Shown in pieces: positions 3,999 to 20,889 of a DNA stretch of 22,093 nt. This DNA is from a virus. The notes under the pieces are model-generated. The model searched no databases and had not been told where the DNA came from. It saw nothing but the letters and a program-made list of their open reading frames with translations. The first letter of the stretch is position 1, and every line of letters starts with the position of its first letter. The stretch lies in IMG/VR virus record IMGVR_UViG_3300022602_000470, positions 1-22,093 of that record, one strand, 5' to 3'. The position numbers and the translations under genes were made by a program.

Positions 3999-4448
3999 GT
4001 GAACAGAAGACGTACAGTTAGGTTTAAACAGGGTCTCTTTAAGCCTAGTAACCCGGACAAGTATAAAGGCACCCATCCCATCATATACAGATCTTCATAC
4101 GAATTACGTTTTATGAGATGGGCTGATCATAACCCTGCTATTACTTCTTGGGGATCAGAATCTATAGTTATACCTTATCAGAATCCTTTAACAGGAAGAG
4201 TATCTCGATACTTTGTCGATAATAATATTACTATAAAAGCTAAAGATGGTACAACTAAAAAATACCTAATAGAAATTAAACCATCTATTCAAACTTTACC
4301 TCCCAAGGCAACAAGAAATACAAAATCCTTAATGCGTAAACAAGCCGAGTATATAAAGAATAGAGCTAAGTGGGAAGCAGCTAGTCAGTGGGCTAAGAAA
4401 AAGAATTATGAGTTTACAATTATTACCGAGAAGCACTTAGGTTTATAA
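3999..4448 (+). CDS. 4: Head-completion protein gp4-like (nuclease fold)
   Basis: This 149-aa protein (T4 gp4 is 150 aa) begins with GTG directly after the previous TAA, so it is probably translationally coupled. It has the family's conserved blocks: GLFKPSNPDKYKGTHPIIYR, SSYELRFMRWADHNPAI, WGSESIVIPYQNPLTGRVSR, YFVDN and the ExK strand LIEIKP. Glu35, Asp74 and Glu92-x-Lys94 fit a TnsA/restriction-endonuclease-like active site; Asp74 sits in RYFVDN where relatives have RYFPD. T4 gp4 is needed to complete heads before tail joining; the nuclease activity is inferred from fold, not demonstrated here. Its 3' end overlaps the opposing membrane-protein gene by 6 nt. Confidence 0.75.
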   Translation: MNRRRTVRFKQGLFKPSNPDKYKGTHPIIYRSSYELRFMRWADHNPAITSWGSESIVIPYQNPLTGRVSRYFVDNNITIKAKDGTTKKYLIEIKPSIQTLPPKATRNTKSLMRKQAEYIKNRAKWEAASQWAKKKNYEFTIITEKHLGL

Positions 4449-5273
4449 ATGATTATTAGAGTTATGATAACCTTGACCAATAATAATGTTATCAGGTAAA
4501 GGTTCTTCTTTCTTTTTAGGTTCTTTAACTTCTTTTAGCATACTACCTGTTAAAGCTATATTAAGTGCTAATACTAAACTAACTGACAATGGATCAAAGA
4601 CTGATACAAGAATTAAAATAAACCATTTAACAACAGTATCTAAAGGTGCATTAAAAGATTTAGCAACAAACTTAAATGTGCCAATATCATTTGCTTTACT
4701 AGTATCAGTTTTAAGAGATATAATTTCATTATCTTTTTCAAACTTTGTTGTTTGTAACGATTGAAGTCTACCAGTTAAGTTAGTAATTTCGTCACTTGAC
4801 TTCTTAATGTCATCGTAAATAGGTTTAGCAGCCCTTGAGGATAAATCTGGTAATCTTTTTTCTTGAGATTTTCGAGCTGCATTCAGCGTATCGATACGAC
4901 TCTGAATACTAACAATTTCTTCATTAACAGATTGCTTTTGATTTTCTATTAATGCTATTTTATTATCATCTAAAGAATTTTTAGAAGCATTCTTTTGATA
5001 AGCTGAAGATAGATAACCAAAAATACCAGCTGAAGTAATAACCATTAATATACCTACAGCTATAAGAAGATAGGTTATAAGAAAGATATTTGTCTTATTC
5101 CAATAACGATAAAGGAATGATGTTGCAATAAGTTTAGCAAATTCTAACGCCCCAGCCATAATCATAACTTGGTAGTAACACCCTGAAAACAAAGATGCTA
5201 TACCTAATACTGAAAAAAAAGCAGCACTACCGGCAACCAATAATGATGAAAGACTTAACAATATAATAAACAT
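4443..5273 (-). CDS. Phage membrane protein with central coiled coil
   Basis: I chose the start at 5273 (MFIILLSLSS) because an AATAAATA octamer lies 8 nt upstream on this strand; a longer frame from 5339 would run through that promoter. The 276-aa product has hydrophobic segments at about 2-28, 33-55 (with AGALEFAKLIATSFLYRYW) and 62-88, a Lys/Glu/Gln-rich coiled coil at about 100-192, a fourth hydrophobic segment at about 216-243 (VVKWFILILVSVFDPLSVSL) and a charged Lys/Glu C-tail. Similar proteins occur in marine T4-like phages without known function. It could act in the host envelope (superinfection exclusion, lysis timing or membrane-linked assembly). It is transcribed against the capsid genes and overlaps gp4 tail to tail. 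Confidence 0.75.
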   Translation of the reverse strand: MFIILLSLSSLLVAGSAAFFSVLGIASLFSGCYYQVMIMAGALEFAKLIATSFLYRYWNKTNIFLITYLLIAVGILMVITSAGIFGYLSSAYQKNASKNSLDDNKIALIENQKQSVNEEIVSIQSRIDTLNAARKSQEKRLPDLSSRAAKPIYDDIKKSSDEITNLTGRLQSLQTTKFEKDNEIISLKTDTSKANDIGTFKFVAKSFNAPLDTVVKWFILILVSVFDPLSVSLVLALNIALTGSMLKEVKEPKKKEEPLPDNIIIGQGYHNSNNHL

Positions 5274-5281
5274 GATTACAG

Positions 5282-5289
5282 TATTTATT
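5282..5289 (-). promoter_or_regulatory. T4-late-type promoter octamer AATAAATA (minus strand)
   Basis: The reverse complement of 5282-5289 is AATAAATA, 8 nt upstream of the membrane-protein start at 5273. With the octamer at 5320-5327 it forms a divergent promoter pair in a 66-nt gap. Confidence 0.6.
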
Positions 5290-5319
5290 GATTTTAACCG
5301 AGAAAACGGGACAGGCCGG

Positions 5320-5327
5320 TATAAATA
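5320..5327 (+). promoter_or_regulatory. T4 late promoter, exact TATAAATA
   Basis: An exact match to the T4 late consensus lies 12 nt before the ATG of the prohead protease gene at 5340. Confidence 0.75.
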
Positions 5328-5339
5328 ATTGTAACACAT

Positions 5340-9351: not shown

Positions 9352-10059
9352 ATGGCTAATACAATATATGTTATTCCAGATACTGAATGTATCGGTACAT
9401 CTCTTCAACATATTAATGACAATTTTAATTTGTTAAATCAGCAGATTACAACTGATACTACTAACATAGCTACGTTATCTAGTTATGTAGCACCTATTGG
9501 TACAACAGTATCTCTTTCATCTAATTTTGTTTATACAGTTCATTGTGATGGAACTGATACTACAGGAATAACAAATTCCTGGCAGGATATTTACGTAGAT
9601 AGTGTACCTAACCCTTTAAGAATATCATATAATAATACATCATCTTCTCCTTATACTGTTCTTTTACAAGGTAAAGTTTATGCTCGAAACTACGGTATGG
9701 CAGTTACTAGCTTTTATAGACTTACAGCTGTTGGTAGTGATAATACAAGTACAGTATTAGATACAGCAGCCTGTGAAGGTAATGTAAGTTATAGTCATAC
9801 TTACAATACAGTATTTCAAAGTGTATTTACTATCCCTGCTAATACAACTTATCAATTCGGCCTTCAATCTTATTTTCCCTCTACCGGTGCTCAACCAAAT
9901 GGTGGTGTTAATATAAACGGGTATCAAACATCTAAAAAAGATTCTTGGAATATAAACAAATCAAAACCGTATACGGCGTCATATGCTAATAATACATCTA
10001 TTGGGTATTCAGATCCAGGGGTCGGTGTTTATTCTTATCTTAAGTTAGTTGTTTTATAA
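9352..10059 (+). CDS. Tail-fibre protein, paralogue A of a tandem pair
   Basis: This 235-aa protein starts with the shared fibre anchor motif (ECIGTSLQHINDNFNLL, about residues 12-28). Its C-terminal 180 residues are a beta-rich domain clearly paralogous to the next gene: both have NPLR(I/V)S, LQGKVY.RN.GMA.TSFYRL, ACEGNV.YSH.YNT.FQS, FGLQ..(F/W)P, (D/S)SW and YANN.(S/T)IGY-like blocks and end with SY.KL. The domain contains no recognised enzyme motif and is likely a trimeric fibre or receptor-binding head. It is first in a run of fibre genes with 1-4 nt gaps. The paralogy is visible directly; the fibre role is inferred from the anchor and context. Confidence 0.75.
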   Translation: MANTIYVIPDTECIGTSLQHINDNFNLLNQQITTDTTNIATLSSYVAPIGTTVSLSSNFVYTVHCDGTDTTGITNSWQDIYVDSVPNPLRISYNNTSSSPYTVLLQGKVYARNYGMAVTSFYRLTAVGSDNTSTVLDTAACEGNVSYSHTYNTVFQSVFTIPANTTYQFGLQSYFPSTGAQPNGGVNINGYQTSKKDSWNINKSKPYTASYANNTSIGYSDPGVGVYSYLKLVVL

Positions 10060-10060
10060 T

Positions 10061-10774
10061 ATGTCTTACGTTACCACTATTAATAGTAATCAGTATGTAG
10101 GTGATTCATTATCTACTATTAATAACAATTTTGCTAATTTAGAAACACAAACTAATAACGTAACTACATTTACAAATTCTGTTTCTGGTAACGTTTTTAA
10201 AAAGGGATATACAGTATCAACTATATCTAATTTTGTTTACGGCCATGTTCTTGACGGTACTGAAAAGAAATCAACTATCATTAATAATTGGAATGATGTA
10301 TATATAAACCCTCAAAAGAATCCTTTAAGAGTGTCATTTACAAACGACAATTATACACGTAAGGCTTTCTTACAAGGTAAAGTATATACCCGTAATGTAG
10401 GTATGGCAGCTACTAGTTTTTATAGGCTTGCCCGTTTTAATGATAATACATCTTCTACACCATTAGAAGTTATTGATGTAACAGCGTGTGAGGGTAATGT
10501 AAATTATAGTCACGGGTACAATACACTATTTCAAAGTTTTTATCTACTTCAACCTAATATAACTTATACATTCGGTTTACAGCATTGGTGGCCAGGAAGT
10601 GGCGCAGGTACAGGTAACGGTATTCAAATAAACGGCTGGCAGACAAATAGTTCAGATTCCTGGGGGCAAAATTCAGGTAACACCTATAAATATATTTACG
10701 CTAATGATAAAACTATTGGTTATCCTAATACAGGAGTCAATATTGAATCGTACATTAAACTTACACTAATTTAA
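10061..10774 (+). CDS. Tail-fibre protein, paralogue B of a tandem pair
   Basis: I chose the ATG at 10061 (MSYVTTINSNQYVGDSLSTI), one nucleotide after the previous stop. A TTG at 10049 would extend the frame only into the upstream gene. The 237-aa product has the anchor motif (YVGDSLSTINNNFANL) and the same C-terminal domain as the preceding gene, at roughly half identical positions by eye. It differs in loops: the segment after the YRL block has an insertion (ARFNDNTSSTPLEVIDVT), and aromatic residues replace polar ones (QHWWPGSGAG against QSYFPSTGAQ). Such loop differences fit two receptor-binding variants. No promoter octamer precedes it. Confidence 0.75.
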   Translation: MSYVTTINSNQYVGDSLSTINNNFANLETQTNNVTTFTNSVSGNVFKKGYTVSTISNFVYGHVLDGTEKKSTIINNWNDVYINPQKNPLRVSFTNDNYTRKAFLQGKVYTRNVGMAATSFYRLARFNDNTSSTPLEVIDVTACEGNVNYSHGYNTLFQSFYLLQPNITYTFGLQHWWPGSGAGTGNGIQINGWQTNSSDSWGQNSGNTYKYIYANDKTIGYPNTGVNIESYIKLTLI

Positions 10775-10778
10775 AACT

Positions 10779-11534
10779 ATGTCTACACCTTACTTAATTA
10801 CAACATTTATTCCAGGAAGTGCCTGTATAGGAGATTCTCGAAATACAATTAATGCTAGTTTTAGCGCTCTAGATACAGCTGTACAGAATTTAAGTACTGG
10901 TTCTATTGCAAATCTTAATGTTGCAAGTGTTATAATTAGCTCAACAGTACCTTCAGTAAACGGTAATCAATTACCTTTTACAGTAGTTGGTAACAGCAAT
11001 ACATCTTTATATAGTTCTATACAGAATATATATGCCGGGGTTAGTGCTAGTACTGATTTATCATTCTATAATGATAGTGGTGTTAACTATCTTGATATCG
11101 GTATTAATAGTACTCAGTATAATGGCAACTCTTACGGTCCAAAATTTAACGTAGTAGGTGCAGGAGATTCTTACATATATACAACTGCTAATGATTTAGC
11201 AATAGGTACATCAGTGCCGAGTACTTTTGCTGATATAATATTCTTTACTGGTGGAGCTTTAAGTGGTACATCCGTCAATGGTGGTAATGAGAGAATGCGT
11301 ATCACTAATACTGGCGGATCTTACTCTGGTAATGTCGGTATTAATACCTCTTTCCCTAACCAACAGTTAACAGTAAGTGGGGCAATTAGTGCTACAACAT
11401 TTGTAGCAACAAGCTCATTATGGGTAGGTAGTTTGTCTGCAACTGTAGTATCACCTGGATCTGTTGTTGCTAAAATGCCAATATATAATGCTGTTGGTAC
11501 CTTTGTTGGTTTTATACCAGTTTATAATTCTTAA
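10779..11534 (+). CDS. Tail-fibre/appendage protein with shared anchor
   Basis: This 251-aa protein has the anchor motif ACIGDSRNTINASFSALDTA at about residues 15-34, then a beta-rich body. Near residues 174-205 it has the block NERMRITNTGG ... GNVGINTSFPNQQLTVSGAI, which closely follows the 'eRMRI...GnVGIgTt.P...LtVsG' pattern common in phage fibres and spike proteins. It ends with a short hydrophobic tail (VGTFVGFIPVYNS). It has no intramolecular chaperone domain. It shares the 5' anchor with 147, 9352 and 10061 but not their C-terminal domains. Translation probably continues from upstream (gap 4 nt). Confidence 0.75.
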   Translation: MSTPYLITTFIPGSACIGDSRNTINASFSALDTAVQNLSTGSIANLNVASVIISSTVPSVNGNQLPFTVVGNSNTSLYSSIQNIYAGVSASTDLSFYNDSGVNYLDIGINSTQYNGNSYGPKFNVVGAGDSYIYTTANDLAIGTSVPSTFADIIFFTGGALSGTSVNGGNERMRITNTGGSYSGNVGINTSFPNQQLTVSGAISATTFVATSSLWVGSLSATVVSPGSVVAKMPIYNAVGTFVGFIPVYNS

Positions 11535-11537
11535 TAT

Positions 11538-11669
11538 ATGGCAGTATTAACACCAGTATTAACAGGCGGTAATGGAGTACCTACATATAACTTAGGTATA
11601 GCAGAAACCTATTCTTGGATACCTATTCAGAATGATCAGAATAGGCCGATGTACGCTAGAGCAGGTTAT
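11538..11669 (+). repeat. Shared N-terminal module, copy 1
   Basis: The first 44 codons of the gene encode a module matching copy 2 (13266-13397) at 38 of 44 residues. The DNA copies are diverged mainly at third positions, so the protein sequence is under selection. Confidence 0.85.
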
Positions 11670-12239
11670 ATTACTAATTTATCTGATTTAACTATAACCC
11701 TTAGTGCTAGTAATTTAACAATCGGTAATGTTAAGCTTCAGGACGGTGTTGATGGTAGTTTAGCTTCTGTTGTTCAAGCTGGTACTAATTACGCTCTTTT
11801 AGTACAGACTCAAGATTTAGATTCTCGTTTAGATAGCATCACTATTGCCGACAGAAATGGACACTTTGCCGATTGTAACGGTCCGTTAAGTGCATTATAT
11901 GTGTACGCTGCTAACGATGTTCAAGTTCACGCTTCTCAAACTTTTCCTATATCAGGTAGTGTTACCGTTCTTAACCCTGTAACAAATTGGGACGTATTAA
12001 GTGCTGCTATTAATAGCTCTAGCTACACAACTCTTCCATCAAATCCTGCTAATGAGATAACAATTTTAAATAATACAGGTGGTATTATGTATATTAAAAA
12101 TGCATCTAAAACATTAGGCTTACCAATTGATAATAACACATCTGCTGATTTTAAACTTGTTGGTAATACTAATGAAGTAGCAGTTATGGCTAGTAGTAAT
12201 AATCAAACTGTATATGCTACATTTATAGCTTATAACTAA
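11538..12239 (+). CDS. Fibre/tail protein with second-type N-terminal module
   Basis: The first 44 of 233 residues (LTPVLTGGNGVPTYNLGIAE, then YSWIPIQNDQNRPMYARA) match the N-terminus of the protein at 13266 at 38 of 44 positions, while the rest differs. This defines a second reusable module, unlike the 'CIGdS..tINxNF' anchor. The middle (SGSVTVLNPVTNWDVLSAAI) and C-terminus (NEITILNNTGGIMYIKNASK ... ATFIAYN) read as beta-strands. No enzymatic motif is seen. It lies within the fibre run (gaps of 3 nt upstream and 1 nt downstream). An exchangeable adaptor or fibre domain is the best inference. Confidence 0.65.
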   Translation: MAVLTPVLTGGNGVPTYNLGIAETYSWIPIQNDQNRPMYARAGYITNLSDLTITLSASNLTIGNVKLQDGVDGSLASVVQAGTNYALLVQTQDLDSRLDSITIADRNGHFADCNGPLSALYVYAANDVQVHASQTFPISGSVTVLNPVTNWDVLSAAINSSSYTTLPSNPANEITILNNTGGIMYIKNASKTLGLPIDNNTSADFKLVGNTNEVAVMASSNNQTVYATFIAYN

Positions 12240-13265: not shown

Positions 13266-13397
13266 ATGGCAACACTTAACCCAGTTTTAACAGGCGGAAA
13301 TGGAACACCTACTTATAGTTTAGGTATAGCTGAGACTTATTCTTGGATTCCCGTACAGAATGATCAGAACAGACCAATGTACGCCAGAGCAGTATAC
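13266..13397 (+). repeat. Shared N-terminal module, copy 2
   Basis: Copy of the module at 11538-11669. Identity stops abruptly after the MYARA segment, marking a domain boundary. Confidence 0.85.
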
Positions 13398-15017
13398 CCG
13401 TTAGGCACTACATTTGGTAAAACTGCTAAAGATGTTATTGGCAATCTTAAGGTTTCTCAAGCTCAAAATATTTACGAAGCTAACTTTGAATATAGCCCGC
13501 AGCCTCTTCGTTGGGAAAGTTTAAATATTGGTGCAGGTTCTATCAGTCACGTCCCAGGAATGGGTGCTGTTAAGATGCAAATTCTTTCAGGTAACGATGT
13601 CAACGTTCGTCAATCTAGACCCTATCATCGTTATCAACCCGGTAAGTCAATGTATATGGCTTCTGCTGTTAATTTTGGTGGCCCTTATATTGGTCAATTC
13701 CAGCGTGTAGGTTTCTTTGATGATGCTAACGGAATGTTTATCGAACAAGGTACACCTGGTTCTAGTTTTAATACAGGTGCTAATTTCGTAGCAAATAGTA
13801 CATTAACAAACATTACAACAGCGGCTGCTTCTTCTAACCCAAACGGTACAGCAGGTATTAATCAATCTCTTTCAGCTAATAATCCATCAGGTATGTATGT
13901 TTGTTGGAGAACGGATTCTAATCCTTACGCCGTTAATGGTAACGCTTCTACAGCTGTTTATACTGATTATAAGATTAGTCTTGATCAGTGGAGTGATCCT
14001 TATAAGATCGCCGGTTCTTTAAACTGGAACGATCTTCAAATGATATGGATGGAATATTCCTGGTACGGTGCTGGTACCCTTCGTTGGGGTGTTTTAATAA
14101 ATGGTGAGCCTTATATCCTTCATGAGCAAGGTATGGGTAACTTCCAGCCTTATGCTTGGGCTAGAACTGGTAATTTACCTGTTCGTTATGAACAAAGAGA
14201 TACTACCGGTATTAATCAGCCATCAACAATGTTACATTACGGAGTATCCGTTATTGTAGACGGTCTTTTAGATCCTCAAAGAGGGTTTACATATAGCTAC
14301 GGTACTTCTGCTATCATGCCAGTTGCTGCAAACGTAAGCCGTAAACCCTTAGTATCTTTACGAGCCAGACAGATGGGAACTATTGAGTATACTCAAGCCG
14401 GTGCTGCTATAACAGGTACACCAACTACATCATCGTTATCTGTTGTAGGTACACCCTGGGCAACTAATCAGTGGGTAGGTCGTTCAATTTTATTCCCTCA
14501 GTTATCAAGCGTAGCTAACCCTTACGGAATTAATGCTAAGATTACTTCAAATACATCTAGCTCATTAACATTCGGAGATGTTGTAACATTAAGTGCTATA
14601 ACAACAGCTCCTACTGTTGGTAGCCCGTATACTATCGGTCAAATTGATCGCGGTCAGATTATTCCTTTAGATCTACTTATCACATCGAATAATTCCGCTC
14701 TCATTGAACTTATTGCTTCTACTCCTACTAGCCCGGTTCAACTAACAGGTGCTAACTTTGTATCGCTTTCATCTTTAGGTTCTACCTACTCATTCGGTGA
14801 AAGAGATATTGCAGCTACATCCTTAACTGGAGGTGAGGTAGTTTACGGTTTCTTTACCCCGACAGCAGGTACTGTTCAGGATATTAACCTTAATAACTTC
14901 TTCCCATTGTACAATACAATTAAGGGTAATACACCAGATATTTTAACTGTAGCTATCACAACAACATCTACAGTTAGTGCAGGTGTGCACGTTGTAGGTC
15001 AAGAAACAATGTCTTAA
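13266..15017 (+). CDS. Large tail-fibre/structural protein
   Basis: This 583-aa protein is the largest in the fibre cassette. Residues 1-44 are the module shared with 11538. The next part (KDVIGNLKVSQAQNIYEANF, then PLRWES) and the core follow a widespread phage structural-protein pattern: RPYHRYQPGKSMYMASAV, RVGFFDDANGMFIEQ, WNDLQMIWMEYSWYGAGTLR with WGVLINGEPYILHE, and NLPVRYEQRD. In other phages this 'dvfG..KvS ... YqpGks ... GvGtvRwGfvidG ... lPvRyei' protein is annotated as a structural or tail-fibre protein of unknown detailed role. The last 230 residues are beta-rich (RQMGTIEYTQAGAAITG onward). It is probably a major fibre or baseplate-attached adhesin. Confidence 0.7.
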   Translation: MATLNPVLTGGNGTPTYSLGIAETYSWIPVQNDQNRPMYARAVYPLGTTFGKTAKDVIGNLKVSQAQNIYEANFEYSPQPLRWESLNIGAGSISHVPGMGAVKMQILSGNDVNVRQSRPYHRYQPGKSMYMASAVNFGGPYIGQFQRVGFFDDANGMFIEQGTPGSSFNTGANFVANSTLTNITTAAASSNPNGTAGINQSLSANNPSGMYVCWRTDSNPYAVNGNASTAVYTDYKISLDQWSDPYKIAGSLNWNDLQMIWMEYSWYGAGTLRWGVLINGEPYILHEQGMGNFQPYAWARTGNLPVRYEQRDTTGINQPSTMLHYGVSVIVDGLLDPQRGFTYSYGTSAIMPVAANVSRKPLVSLRARQMGTIEYTQAGAAITGTPTTSSLSVVGTPWATNQWVGRSILFPQLSSVANPYGINAKITSNTSSSLTFGDVVTLSAITTAPTVGSPYTIGQIDRGQIIPLDLLITSNNSALIELIASTPTSPVQLTGANFVSLSSLGSTYSFGERDIAATSLTGGEVVYGFFTPTAGTVQDINLNNFFPLYNTIKGNTPDILTVAITTTSTVSAGVHVVGQETMS

Positions 15018-16500: not shown

Positions 16501-18258
16501 ATGAAGAAGTATTACGGAAATTATTTAGGAATTTGTATCAGTAATTCTGATCCTCAGTATAGAGGTAGAGTACAGATATTCATACCTAATATAATGCCTG
16601 CCTTGTATAAGAAGTGGAATCAAGACGGTAAGGATATAACTATTAATGGAGTAGGAGACAACTTACAAGGTGGTATACCTTCAGAAGTTATTGAAGATTT
16701 AAAAAAGATTCTACCTTGGGCAGAAGCTGCATCCCCTATTATGGGAGGTAGTGCCCCAGGTACTTTAACTACAAACGCAAAAACAGCACCAGCGAGTAGT
16801 GGTATAGTCTCTACGTTAGTAAAAGCTGTTGCTAATGTTATAGCACCAGGTGCCACTACGTTAGTAAACGGTGTAAAAAACTTTTACGATCAATCTCCTA
16901 CAGCTACTCCTCCCAACTCTCTTAATCCGGGAGATCAAACTAAGCCTGCTGAGACAAGCAGTGTTAGTGGAACTGTAGCATCAGCCTCTCCTCATCAAAG
17001 TACAGTTCCTGTAGGAACAAATCCCGGAGACCCCAGTTATGGTAGTTCTGCTAACCCTGCTGTAGCCCCTGTTAACGCTCCTAACACTGGTAACAATACT
17101 ATATCACCTGGTTTAGCTGCAGGGTTTGCTGTCATAGGACAAGGGGAGACAGGCTTTCAAACCGGTGAAGCAAATACCGATCGTTATAATCAAGTTAATA
17201 ATAATAGTAATGTCCGTGCCGGGGTTAATAAAGGATTAACCGTAGAACAGTCTATGGCTAGTTTTGGTGATTACGGGTTCTATCAATGTAACGATCATAC
17301 TGAAGGTGCTCTAGTTGAGAAGTATTGTTTAAGTCAAGGGTTTAGTCAAGACCAAGCTACCTATTATCGTCAAGCTATTACTAATAATGCTGGTAAGGGA
17401 AGCTTCTCTGTCTCTGATCAAACCCAGGCAATGTCTTATCTCTTTGCCCAACAACATCCTGCTGCTGTTCAACAACTCAATGCCTTAAAACCAGAGGATC
17501 CTAATTTTCAACAGAGTGTAAATCAGATTATGCTACAGTTTAAAGGTCAGTGGTTTGGTATACCTCGTGGTATTCAAGAAAATGCTGCTTCACCTAACAG
17601 TAGTGCTAATCAAATTATTAAGAATGGTAAAGCTATTTCTTCTCCTAATGTTGTTAATACCCCTGATCGTCACGGACCGACAGCAACATTAGATGTAAAT
17701 AATACTCCAAAGGGTATGTTTAGCTTTCCATCTCCAGGAGCTTTACTATGGGTATTCTTCCAAGAAGGTAATCCGTTATTCCCTGTTTACTTTGCTGCTA
17801 ATTACGGAGCAGGGGAGTGGCAATCAGCGTATAAGACATCTTCACCAGGTCAAGGTATATCTACAACACCTAACGCTGATGGTGCTACATCTCATGGAGG
17901 AGTTTGGACAACAGAAAGTGGAGGCGGTTTTCATTGGGTAAATGATGAACATCCTACTGATCCCACTCAGTCAAATAAGAGTCTTATGATCTTCAGTCAT
18001 GATGGATCAAACATGCATTTCAATACCGGTTATCATCAAATATATTCTAAGTTTGATAGAAGAGATCAAGTTGAAAAGGACCGTTTTGAATCAACAGGTG
18101 GTAATCACGAAACATTAGTTCAAGGGGATCATAACCACGTAGTTATGGGTGATATGATTGTTAAGGTTGGTAACGTAAGTCAACCTGCTGTAGATGCTGT
18201 AACTAGAATACAACAACTATTAACTGAAATTCATGCTCCGTTAACCAAAAGTAGCTAA
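16501..18258 (+). CDS. 5: Baseplate hub/central spike protein gp5-like with inserted lysozyme domain
   Basis: This 585-aa protein resembles T4 gp5 (575 aa), the cell-puncturing spike. Residues 1-83 are the first part of the OB fold (YLGICISNSDPQYRGRVQIF, then ILPWAEAASPI, comparable to T4 'LPWMSVIQPI'). The OB fold appears to resume only at about 402-436 (GMFSFPSPGALLWVFFQEGN, then PLFPVYFAANYG). Between them lie a Pro/Thr/Asn-rich linker (84-200) and a muramidase-like domain (202-362). That domain has AVIGQGETGF with Glu216 as candidate catalytic acid, FGDYGFYQCND (256-265), like the 'DYGifQin' lysozyme signature, and FKGQWFGIP. Residues 460-585 resemble the start of the spike beta-helix (MIFSHDGSNMHF, GDHNHVVMGDMIVKVG). 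It should open peptidoglycan during infection. Confidence 0.8.
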   Translation: MKKYYGNYLGICISNSDPQYRGRVQIFIPNIMPALYKKWNQDGKDITINGVGDNLQGGIPSEVIEDLKKILPWAEAASPIMGGSAPGTLTTNAKTAPASSGIVSTLVKAVANVIAPGATTLVNGVKNFYDQSPTATPPNSLNPGDQTKPAETSSVSGTVASASPHQSTVPVGTNPGDPSYGSSANPAVAPVNAPNTGNNTISPGLAAGFAVIGQGETGFQTGEANTDRYNQVNNNSNVRAGVNKGLTVEQSMASFGDYGFYQCNDHTEGALVEKYCLSQGFSQDQATYYRQAITNNAGKGSFSVSDQTQAMSYLFAQQHPAAVQQLNALKPEDPNFQQSVNQIMLQFKGQWFGIPRGIQENAASPNSSANQIIKNGKAISSPNVVNTPDRHGPTATLDVNNTPKGMFSFPSPGALLWVFFQEGNPLFPVYFAANYGAGEWQSAYKTSSPGQGISTTPNADGATSHGGVWTTESGGGFHWVNDEHPTDPTQSNKSLMIFSHDGSNMHFNTGYHQIYSKFDRRDQVEKDRFESTGGNHETLVQGDHNHVVMGDMIVKVGNVSQPAVDAVTRIQQLLTEIHAPLTKSS

Positions 18259-18285: not shown

Positions 18286-19659
18286 ATGGCCGATCAGAAA
18301 CAAATAACATGTCCTTTTTGTACAGGTACCGTATTACCAAAGTTAGCTGCCAGACCTTTTTTAAGTTTAAACGGATTTCTTCAACGTAACTTTGGTATAC
18401 AAATACCTTCAACTGCTTTTAGTACGTTATTACAGTTAGCACCTATTCCAAAGAAAGCTCTTTTTTTACAAGCCTGTGTAGCTTGTGGAGGTAAGGGTAC
18501 AATATCTGATCCTTCAGATGATTCAGCAAAGCATGCACAAGTAGCAAATTTAGCTAAACAACATCAAGCTGAAATTGAAAAGAATGAAGCTTTAGCTACA
18601 GGATGTAATCGTTATACTATAATTCAAGGTAGTGATTTATTAGAGGTTGGTATCGGTATGAATACTACTCCTTCATATAGAGTAGATGAAGGTAAGGGAA
18701 TAAGAAATGCTCGTCTAGCTGATCCTTCTGAAGTTGATACTTCTAAAGGTGGACCTCAAGCACCGATTGGAGCTACAGCTAATCACGTTCAAGGTACTAA
18801 CCCTCTATCCTCCCCAGGAGGAGTTTATGTTATTAAGTGTAGTAATAAATTTTCTGTATTAGCCGGAGCTCAGGGTATTGATATTACAACCGGAGGTCCT
18901 GTTAATATACACGGAGGTATAACTTCTATTATTGGCCCGGAAGTTACTATTGGTTCAAGTACTGGTCGTCTATTACTAGAAGGAGAAACAGTAATAGTAA
19001 ATGGTAAGAGTATTGAAGTATCACCCTCTGATGGTCATTTATTTGTTCGTGGCACGATTAGTAATACTGGTAATATTATTACTGGTGGTCACATTCATGC
19101 TGAAAGTATGTCTGTAGTTAAGATGGATTGTGTTAGTAGAAATGAAACAACTACAATTAGCGGACCAGGTAACTTAATGACTGGTCCTGCTTTCTGGGGA
19201 CCAGAAACAGCTTTAGTTGGTACGTTATTAGATCTCTCAAGTAATGTATCCCAGCAAGTAGCTAATCCTGATTTTGCTACTCAATTAACCTCAATTAGAG
19301 GAGCTTTAGGTATGAGTGAGAGTATGGTTAATTTAGCTTATGCTGCTATACCATTCGAATTAAAACCGAGTGGGGTAACTGCAACAGTTCCACCAGTACC
19401 TGTTTATCTTTTCCCTCACGTTCATGCTTTACCTGATCTTAGACATACTCACGAAGTTAGAGTACCGAATTTTGATCATAGTGATACAGCTGATGAACTT
19501 AGGAATAAACAAGCTGGAGTTACTGATTCTGCTCCTTTAGGTAAGGATTCAAGCAGTCCTCTTAAAGCTGTAGCTAGTTTAATCAGTTCAATAGGAACGG
19601 CGTTTACAGCAGCTCGCTCAGCTACTCAGAATAGCGTATTCCTTAAACACTTACTTTAA
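18286..19659 (+). CDS. Beta-helical spike/baseplate protein with zinc ribbon and HxH motifs
   Basis: This 457-aa protein has an N-terminal four-Cys site (C9-x2-C12 and C64-x2-C67, in CPFC and CVACGGKG) that looks like a zinc ribbon. A beta-helix-like region follows (about 175-275: GGVYVIKCSNKFSVLAGAQG, then TTGGPVNIHG, LEGETVIVNGKSIEVSPSDG), similar in style to the C-terminal needle of gp5. Three HxH motifs are present: H269-x-H271, H378-x-H380 and H387-x-H389. In phage P2 gpV and phi92 spikes, HxH residues bind iron at the tip. Located 27 nt after gp5, it is likely part of the central spike or its tip, possibly in place of a PAAR protein. The C-terminal 60 residues are Ala/Ser-rich helix. 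The role is inferred; the metal sites are seen only as motifs. Confidence 0.65.
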   Translation: MADQKQITCPFCTGTVLPKLAARPFLSLNGFLQRNFGIQIPSTAFSTLLQLAPIPKKALFLQACVACGGKGTISDPSDDSAKHAQVANLAKQHQAEIEKNEALATGCNRYTIIQGSDLLEVGIGMNTTPSYRVDEGKGIRNARLADPSEVDTSKGGPQAPIGATANHVQGTNPLSSPGGVYVIKCSNKFSVLAGAQGIDITTGGPVNIHGGITSIIGPEVTIGSSTGRLLLEGETVIVNGKSIEVSPSDGHLFVRGTISNTGNIITGGHIHAESMSVVKMDCVSRNETTTISGPGNLMTGPAFWGPETALVGTLLDLSSNVSQQVANPDFATQLTSIRGALGMSESMVNLAYAAIPFELKPSGVTATVPPVPVYLFPHVHALPDLRHTHEVRVPNFDHSDTADELRNKQAGVTDSAPLGKDSSSPLKAVASLISSIGTAFTAARSATQNSVFLKHLL

Positions 19660-20094: not shown

Positions 20095-20889
20095 CTAGTG
20101 TCTAAGTGCTTTTTGTTGCTCTTGATATACTTCTAATTTTTCTACAATAAACTTCAATAATTCTGATCTCATGATATCTTCTTTACCGAATTGTACGCAA
20201 AAGATACCTTGTTTTTGAGATTCTTCATCATTAAAGATATCAAACATTGGTTTAAACCCAGATTGTTCTCTATGTCTAAGATCTGTTTGCATTGGATCTC
20301 CTAAGATAAAGAACTTACTAAACTTACCAATACGAGTAACTGCAGTTATGAGTTCCTTAGTATCTAAGTTTTGAGCTTCATCAACAATAATACAGTTAGC
20401 ATTATAAGAAGCACCTCTTAGATAGTTAACTGGAATTGGCTTAATACGTTCATCAAGAAATAATTTTTTTATATCTCCAGAACTAAGAAACTCTTCAAGC
20501 TTATCTACTAAAGGCATAGCAAAGGGTTTAAACTTATCGTGAGCTTCACCAGGTAAAGAACCTAAAGTATTTGAAGCACTCTCTACAATAGAACGTACAT
20601 AGATAAGTTCACTCGCTTTCTTTAAATTCATTAAAGCTAAGGCACAATAAACAGCTAGAGCTGTTTTAGATGTACCAGCCGGGCCACTTAAAAATACAAC
20701 TCTTGTATCTTTATGAGTAGCAAGCTCAATAAAAGCTTTTTGTTTTTCCGTCCATTCTAATCCTTTTATGTTTAATGTATAGGGTAGTTTGTCTCGTTGA
20801 GGGACGCGGGGTGAAGTATCCTTGGTAACAGTTTCTGTTACTTCGGCCTTAACAGGTGCTGCTTTCGCAGTACGCTTTTTTTTACTCAT
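20095..20889 (-). CDS. phoH: PhoH-family ATPase
   Basis: This 264-aa protein has a basic, low-complexity N-terminus (MSKKKRTAKAAPVKAEVTET, about 35 residues), then a PhoH/helicase-type P-loop domain. Walker A is GPAGTSKT (69-76); many relatives have GPAGTGKT. The block YVRSIVESASNTLGSLPGEA follows, then PVNYLRGASYNANC, Walker B IIVDEAQN (167-174) and ILGDPMQTD (196-204). Such PhoH-like proteins are common in marine and T4-type phages. Bacterial PhoH is linked to phosphate starvation and RNA metabolism, but the phage role is not settled. An AATAAATA octamer sits 7 nt before the start, suggesting late expression, and the gene is divergent from 20949. Confidence 0.92.
   Translation of the reverse strand: MSKKKRTAKAAPVKAEVTETVTKDTSPRVPQRDKLPYTLNIKGLEWTEKQKAFIELATHKDTRVVFLSGPAGTSKTALAVYCALALMNLKKASELIYVRSIVESASNTLGSLPGEAHDKFKPFAMPLVDKLEEFLSSGDIKKLFLDERIKPIPVNYLRGASYNANCIIVDEAQNLDTKELITAVTRIGKFSKFFILGDPMQTDLRHREQSGFKPMFDIFNDEESQKQGIFCVQFGKEDIMRSELLKFIVEKLEVYQEQQKALRH

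Follow-up and report, generated by a model that had tools for sequence, protein, structure and literature searches.

The open reading frame at 16501-18258 (+ strand) of our window, a 22,093-base stretch of DNA that constitutes the whole virus record, encodes a 585-residue baseplate hub/spike of the gp5 type, and the phage is a distant member of the T4 superfamily. In our judgment it is very likely that this protein forms the central hub and spike, and that a loop of its OB domain is interrupted by an exchangeable cassette carrying a lysozyme-fold glycan hydrolase. This placement follows from a capsid protein of the gp23 type, together with PhoH and a head-closure match, all in the window; that capsid protein is only 31-32% identical to that of its nearest isolates (cyanophage gp23). 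Compared by these traits alone, it resembles the uncultivated freshwater Far-T4 phages, which are environmental, have a T4-superfamily capsid and carry phoH (20095-20889 in the window) close to the structural genes (PMC4360716). That paper makes no mention of gp5, lysozyme or the baseplate.

The N-terminal half of the OB domain (residues 1-81, 16501-16743, +), which ends ILPWAEAASPIM, is recognized by its identity among relatives, by half-matches of these relatives to PF04717 and by alignment to T4 gp5, while the C-terminal half (about residues 403-440, 17707-17820, +), GMFSFPSPGALLWVFFQEGNPLFPVYFAANYG, is recognized by positions 44-73 of PF04717. This Pfam spike OB model has 75 positions and a curated cut-off of 23.8 bits. 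In the window it matches only with positions 44-73, at residues 404-433, and in a hub that is 60% identical (L001) only with positions 2-26, at residues 9-33; in relatives, the model is covered from position 1 to 36 by N-terminal matches and from 35 to 75 by C-terminal ones. When the two halves of the window protein are joined, the score rises to 23.6 bits (cut-off 23.8), versus 0 and 15.1 bits for the halves alone, and the joined halves of relatives score 23.9-40.4 bits, with 27.8, 29.1 and 40.4 in three of them. Joining the halves in the reverse order (C before N) gave a nearly equal score, a control that does not discriminate because HMMER sums separate stretches. In the 50-row family alignment, the C-terminal half keeps G, F, W, FF, G, P, PV, A and W invariant. 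Together, profiles and relatives indicate that residues 1-81 and about 403-440 are complementary halves of one OB domain with the enzyme nested between them.

The sequence-only reading had proposed that the OB-like N-terminus reaches ILPWAEAASPI, the counterpart of T4 LPWMSVIQPI, and that the missing segment returns some 320 residues later, placing an enzyme inside the fold. The first part finds its pairing in hhalign of the family profile against T4 gp5 (residues 8-86 with T4 11-68, LPW-AEAASPI with LPW-MSVIQPI), although, with T4 represented by one sequence only, the formal probability of this pair is low. The return of the segment is confirmed by the second half of PF04717: ILPWA begins at residue 70, the first OB-like part ends with ILPWAEAASPI at residue 80, OB-like strands resume at 404 after a gap of 324 residues, and FSFPSPGALLWVFFQEGNP and PVYFAANYG occupy residues 407-436. 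Nesting itself is supported by the profile halves, by natural relatives that lack the enzyme and by enzyme swaps at the same site.

The length of the loop between the OB halves is bimodal, 75-131 aa without enzyme versus 294-571 aa with it, and nothing lies between 131 and 294; T4 gp5 has 17 residues at the insertion site. Thirty-five hubs, the window included, bear an enzyme in the loop, and about 84 fetched relatives have the short loop and intact reading frames (some of these rows are the same contigs fetched twice; distinct relatives keeping both halves number over 50). Those enzyme-less relatives that were aligned to the window share roughly 40-57% identity with its N half and 21-30% with its C half. 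It could be argued that the protein is linear, as in T4, with a complete OB domain in residues 1-100 followed by the enzyme, and with residues 403-440 opening a separate beta domain of the spike. The AlphaFold2 monomer of the whole hub, computed with 50 relatives, leaves some room for this: it gives the enzyme with confidence, and both OB halves stay largely below pLDDT 50, without confident packing of one on the other. Structure prediction, which had been suggested as a check, gave a confident fold for the nested domain and showed neither arrangement of the OB domain. As the barrel has no confident model, the split-OB claim rests on profiles and relatives, and these make the linear arrangement very unlikely. 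The PF04717 model is accounted for only by both halves, each covering a different part of the profile, and some enzyme-less relatives exceed its curated cut-off with two stretches parted by the short loop. An assembly chimera or a one-off insertion, for which the fact that we started from a single window could speak, has next to no probability, because independent contigs share the architecture: the 60% identical hub with the same arrangement comes from a separate metagenome contig, and the 35 enzyme-bearing and about 84 enzyme-less rows have intact reading frames.

The nested domain (residues 199-368, 17095-17604, +) is delimited by AlphaFold2, VIA-align and its eight-member family, and its 170 mostly helical residues fold alone with a pLDDT of 91.6 and a pTM of 0.85. 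The candidate catalytic acid, Glu216 (codon 17146-17148, +), closes the domain's first helix (5-19 in the domain model) and is invariant in 8/8 relatives. So are the G, D, Y, G, Q and N of the active-site-like motif GDYGFYQCN (residues 256-264, 17266-17292, +; GDYGFYQ at 256-262), that is, the pattern GDYG..Q.N. VIA-align ranks lambda lysozyme at the top (Z 6.7; rmsd 4.3 over 120 residues), followed by MltE, GH19 chitinases, phi29 gp13, MltC and phiKZ gp144. Rows 1-21 all belong to the lysozyme superfamily, except for one entry whose title says no more than "putative bacteriophage protein"; the Z values, at 5-7, are modest. Foldseek returned no significant match for the domain (E above 1). Neither the domain nor its profile has a sequence match in Pfam, PHROG or the PDB, including any to GH24, the T4-type lysozymes (Pfam, PDB). 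The proposal of a muramidase-like domain with Glu216 and DYGFYQ is supported by its structural neighbours and its invariant motifs, with the activity predicted; the suggested comparison with lysozyme and transglycosylase families yielded no match in sequence and a modest likeness in structure (lambda lysozyme, MltE, phi29 gp13).

One may ask whether the insert is an enzyme at all, or instead a structural or receptor-binding decoration of the hub. The missing sequence family and the weak Foldseek scores are compatible with a decoration. We nonetheless hold this to be unlikely, since lysozyme-superfamily proteins top the VIA-align list, an invariant Glu stands at the end of helix 1 together with GDYG..Q.N, and recognizable peptidoglycan hydrolases occupy the same loop in relatives. 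On the strength of the structural neighbours, Glu216 and the GDYG..Q.N motif, we take the nested domain as a putative lysozyme-fold glycan hydrolase of a new family. Its best structural neighbours (lambda lysozyme, MltE, phi29 gp13, GH19) have the candidate Glu at the end of the first helix as well, but no sequence relation to them is detectable, and the domain is found only as an insert of hub OB loops. Its family has at least 8 members, and all the IMG/VR relatives found lie within such loops. Searches with the insert alone gave no match outside hub proteins in viral contigs, none in 84,980 bacterial and archaeal genomes and no real match in 50,697 phage records.

The loops of other hubs carry different enzymes, although several of these matches score below curated cut-offs: CHAP or Amidase_5 (L023, L042, L052), NlpC-like (L046), VanY/M15 (L025, L048, L053, L056), M23 (L074), SLT (L029, L031, L032, L042, L043, L058) and GH75-like (L040). 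Two more (L037, L041) contain a module found elsewhere in phage endolysins and tape measures, some loop modules have no family assignment, and modules usually come two in a row. Among eight module types compared by profile, the single link is that of the window type with type G. The hubs of L042 and L045 are 95% identical outside the loop and differ in the second enzyme, as do those of L035 and L036 (87% identical); conversely, the hubs of L037 and L041 are only 44% identical and share a module at 71% identity. DNA matches between L042 and L045 are confined to the flanks and the middle linker. In the hub-core tree, sister pairs with full support carry different cassettes. The tree (33 rows) also implies 19 changes of glycan-hydrolase type, but the labels of two-slot modules were partly assigned by eye, and we therefore rely on the sister pairs instead of this count. 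Like hubs with unlike enzymes, and unlike hubs with a like module, point to exchange: as judged from sequence, enzymes move between hubs and hubs change enzymes. Nesting of an enzyme had thus been read correctly from the window, and the insertion is no singular event: the site is a family-wide, exchangeable cassette site with two slots. As a separate observation, an RNNNPGNL-type module in the loops of L036, L037 and L041 is 66-75% identical across hubs of 44-50% identity, and its PHROG matches are to tape measure and endolysin.

The linkers suggest how the cassette is organized. The entry linker (about residues 82-140, 16744-16920, +) contains FYDQSPTATP and is the same in eight other hubs (L001, L021, L024, L026, L030, L031, L034, L037). 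It is followed by the middle linker (residues 141-198, 16921-17094, +), ETSSVSGTVASASPHQST..YGSSANP, which has 53-56% identical counterparts in L027, L029 and L030, and the enzyme is followed by the exit linker (residues 369-402, 17605-17706, +), VN.xDxHGP.AT.xxNNT, common to 11 other enzyme-bearing hubs. In L027, L029 and L030, the middle linker appears at aa 299-357, only after a CHAP-type module, whereas in the window it directly adjoins the entry linker. By this comparison of linkers, the loop has two enzyme slots, and in the window slot 1 is empty and slot 2 filled. It is somewhat more probable than an even chance that a large group of uncultivated phages has, in the hub OB loop, a general docking site with two slots and with the linkers as recombination seams, and that these phages refit their spike with different enzyme pairs (typically an amidase or peptidase plus a glycan hydrolase) to match the peptidoglycan of the host, as other phages refit their tail fibres.

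Downstream of the C-terminal OB half, the chain continues into a beta-rich, gp5C-like spike base (residues 441-560, 17821-18180, +) and ends in a terminal helix (residues 561-582, 18181-18246, +; AlphaFold2 DSSP). The base is indicated by PHROG 430, "baseplate hub subunit and tail lysozyme", which the hub matches at E 7.6e-7 with its best stretch at 521-561, and by VIA-align to T4 gp5, VgrG and eCIS spikes (Z 4.3-5.4); Gp5_trimer_C scores 14.5 bits in the hub, under its cut-off of 30.9. A separate spike shaft/tip protein is encoded at 18286-19659 (+), with CxxC pairs about 55 residues apart at its start and a double HxH tip motif (HVH......HTH) near its end. HxH is an iron-binding apex motif of phage spikes (PMC11448403). 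Such a separate ORF, with CxxC and an HxH......HxH tip, directly follows the hub in 29/34 enzyme-bearing loci, while enzyme-less relatives have the two fused, in a chain that runs past the position of the terminal helix into the shaft. We considered a rule by which an enzyme-bearing hub always has a split spike, and dropped it, as L101 has both the enzyme and a fused spike; the link is therefore strong, not absolute. That hub (L101, 3584-6808; 1074 residues), with a window-type enzyme nested in its OB domain and the shaft fused, is the most distant member.

In T4 gp5, the OB domain is continuous, the lysozyme comes between it and the beta-helix, and cleavage separates this enzyme from the shaft, which blocks the lysozyme until it dissociates. 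The window enzyme (199-368) does not follow a continuous OB domain but lies between its halves; its sequence family is a different one, and the shaft has a gene of its own. The likeness to T4 gp5 lies in the hub position, the N-terminal OB domain, the putative lysozyme-fold enzyme and the beta-rich C-terminal spike, with anchor and enzyme in one polypeptide; T4 gp5 likewise is a hub protein that joins an N-terminal OB domain, a lysozyme and a beta-rich spike part in one chain (PMC3004832). In our proposal, the OB domain, whose expected role is to anchor the spike trimer in the hub, is broken open in the loop behind its third strand. The cassette placed there begins with the entry linker, slot 1 (empty) and the middle linker, and continues with a putative lysozyme-fold glycan hydrolase, which fills slot 2, and the exit linker. 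Each trimer would then hold three enzymes, on long tethers attached at either end to the spike collar. If the protein works as T4 gp5 does, the OB trimer would sit at the end of the tail tube, the spike would cross the outer membrane on contraction, and the tethered enzymes would breach the peptidoglycan surrounding the tube. Freeing the enzyme would not require a cleavage of the T4 type between lysozyme and shaft, because the enzyme is held at both ends by the OB domain and the shaft comes from its own gene. In relatives, the loop would act as a tolerant docking site, where other peptidoglycan hydrolases, whose swaps are seen in sequence, are exchanged with the hub unchanged, possibly through recombination in conserved linkers and flanks.

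Contractile spikes of phages, T6SS and eCIS have the OB domain as a conserved part of their core, and to our knowledge the additions described for it sit mostly at chain ends or between domains. Both halves of the window protein match PF04717 (Phage_base_V), the OB domain of VgrG and phage spikes, but here the domain is interrupted midway by about 320 residues. Against phages, the full-length protein, its halves, an enzyme-less relative and L101 gave only weak, short OB matches; one of these, in Bacillus phage SP-15, lies about 60 residues into a 424-aa hub without insert. A nested OB-loop enzyme or a two-slot cassette was found neither in the open-access literature searched nor among isolate phages. 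Hubs with tail lysozymes are already known; what appears to be new is that the enzyme sits within the OB domain and belongs to an exchangeable cassette with two slots. A loop with room for 300-570 foreign residues, which natural relatives do without, may indicate where a spike tolerates cargo with its assembly kept, and the natural swaps offer a ready set for testing whether a tail enzyme is matched to the wall chemistry of its host. These hubs would also hold at least one lysozyme-fold family missed by current libraries and a way of freeing a tail enzyme other than by the cleavage known from T4.

Three further observations concern other genes of the window. Four tail-type proteins (147-563, 9352-10059, 10049-10774 and 10779-11534) all begin with a CIGxSLxxINxNF-like module, about 30-45 residues long, which probably serves each of them for attachment, while their C-terminal parts differ; two of the four are 47% identical throughout. 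The proteins at 11538-12239 and 13266-15017 form another mosaic pair, with like N-terminal parts (42% identity over 136 residues) and unrelated remainders. Finally, a 298-residue protein is encoded on the opposite strand amid the structural genes (4443-5339, -), and shows, by eye, apparent membrane helices and a coiled-coil stretch.
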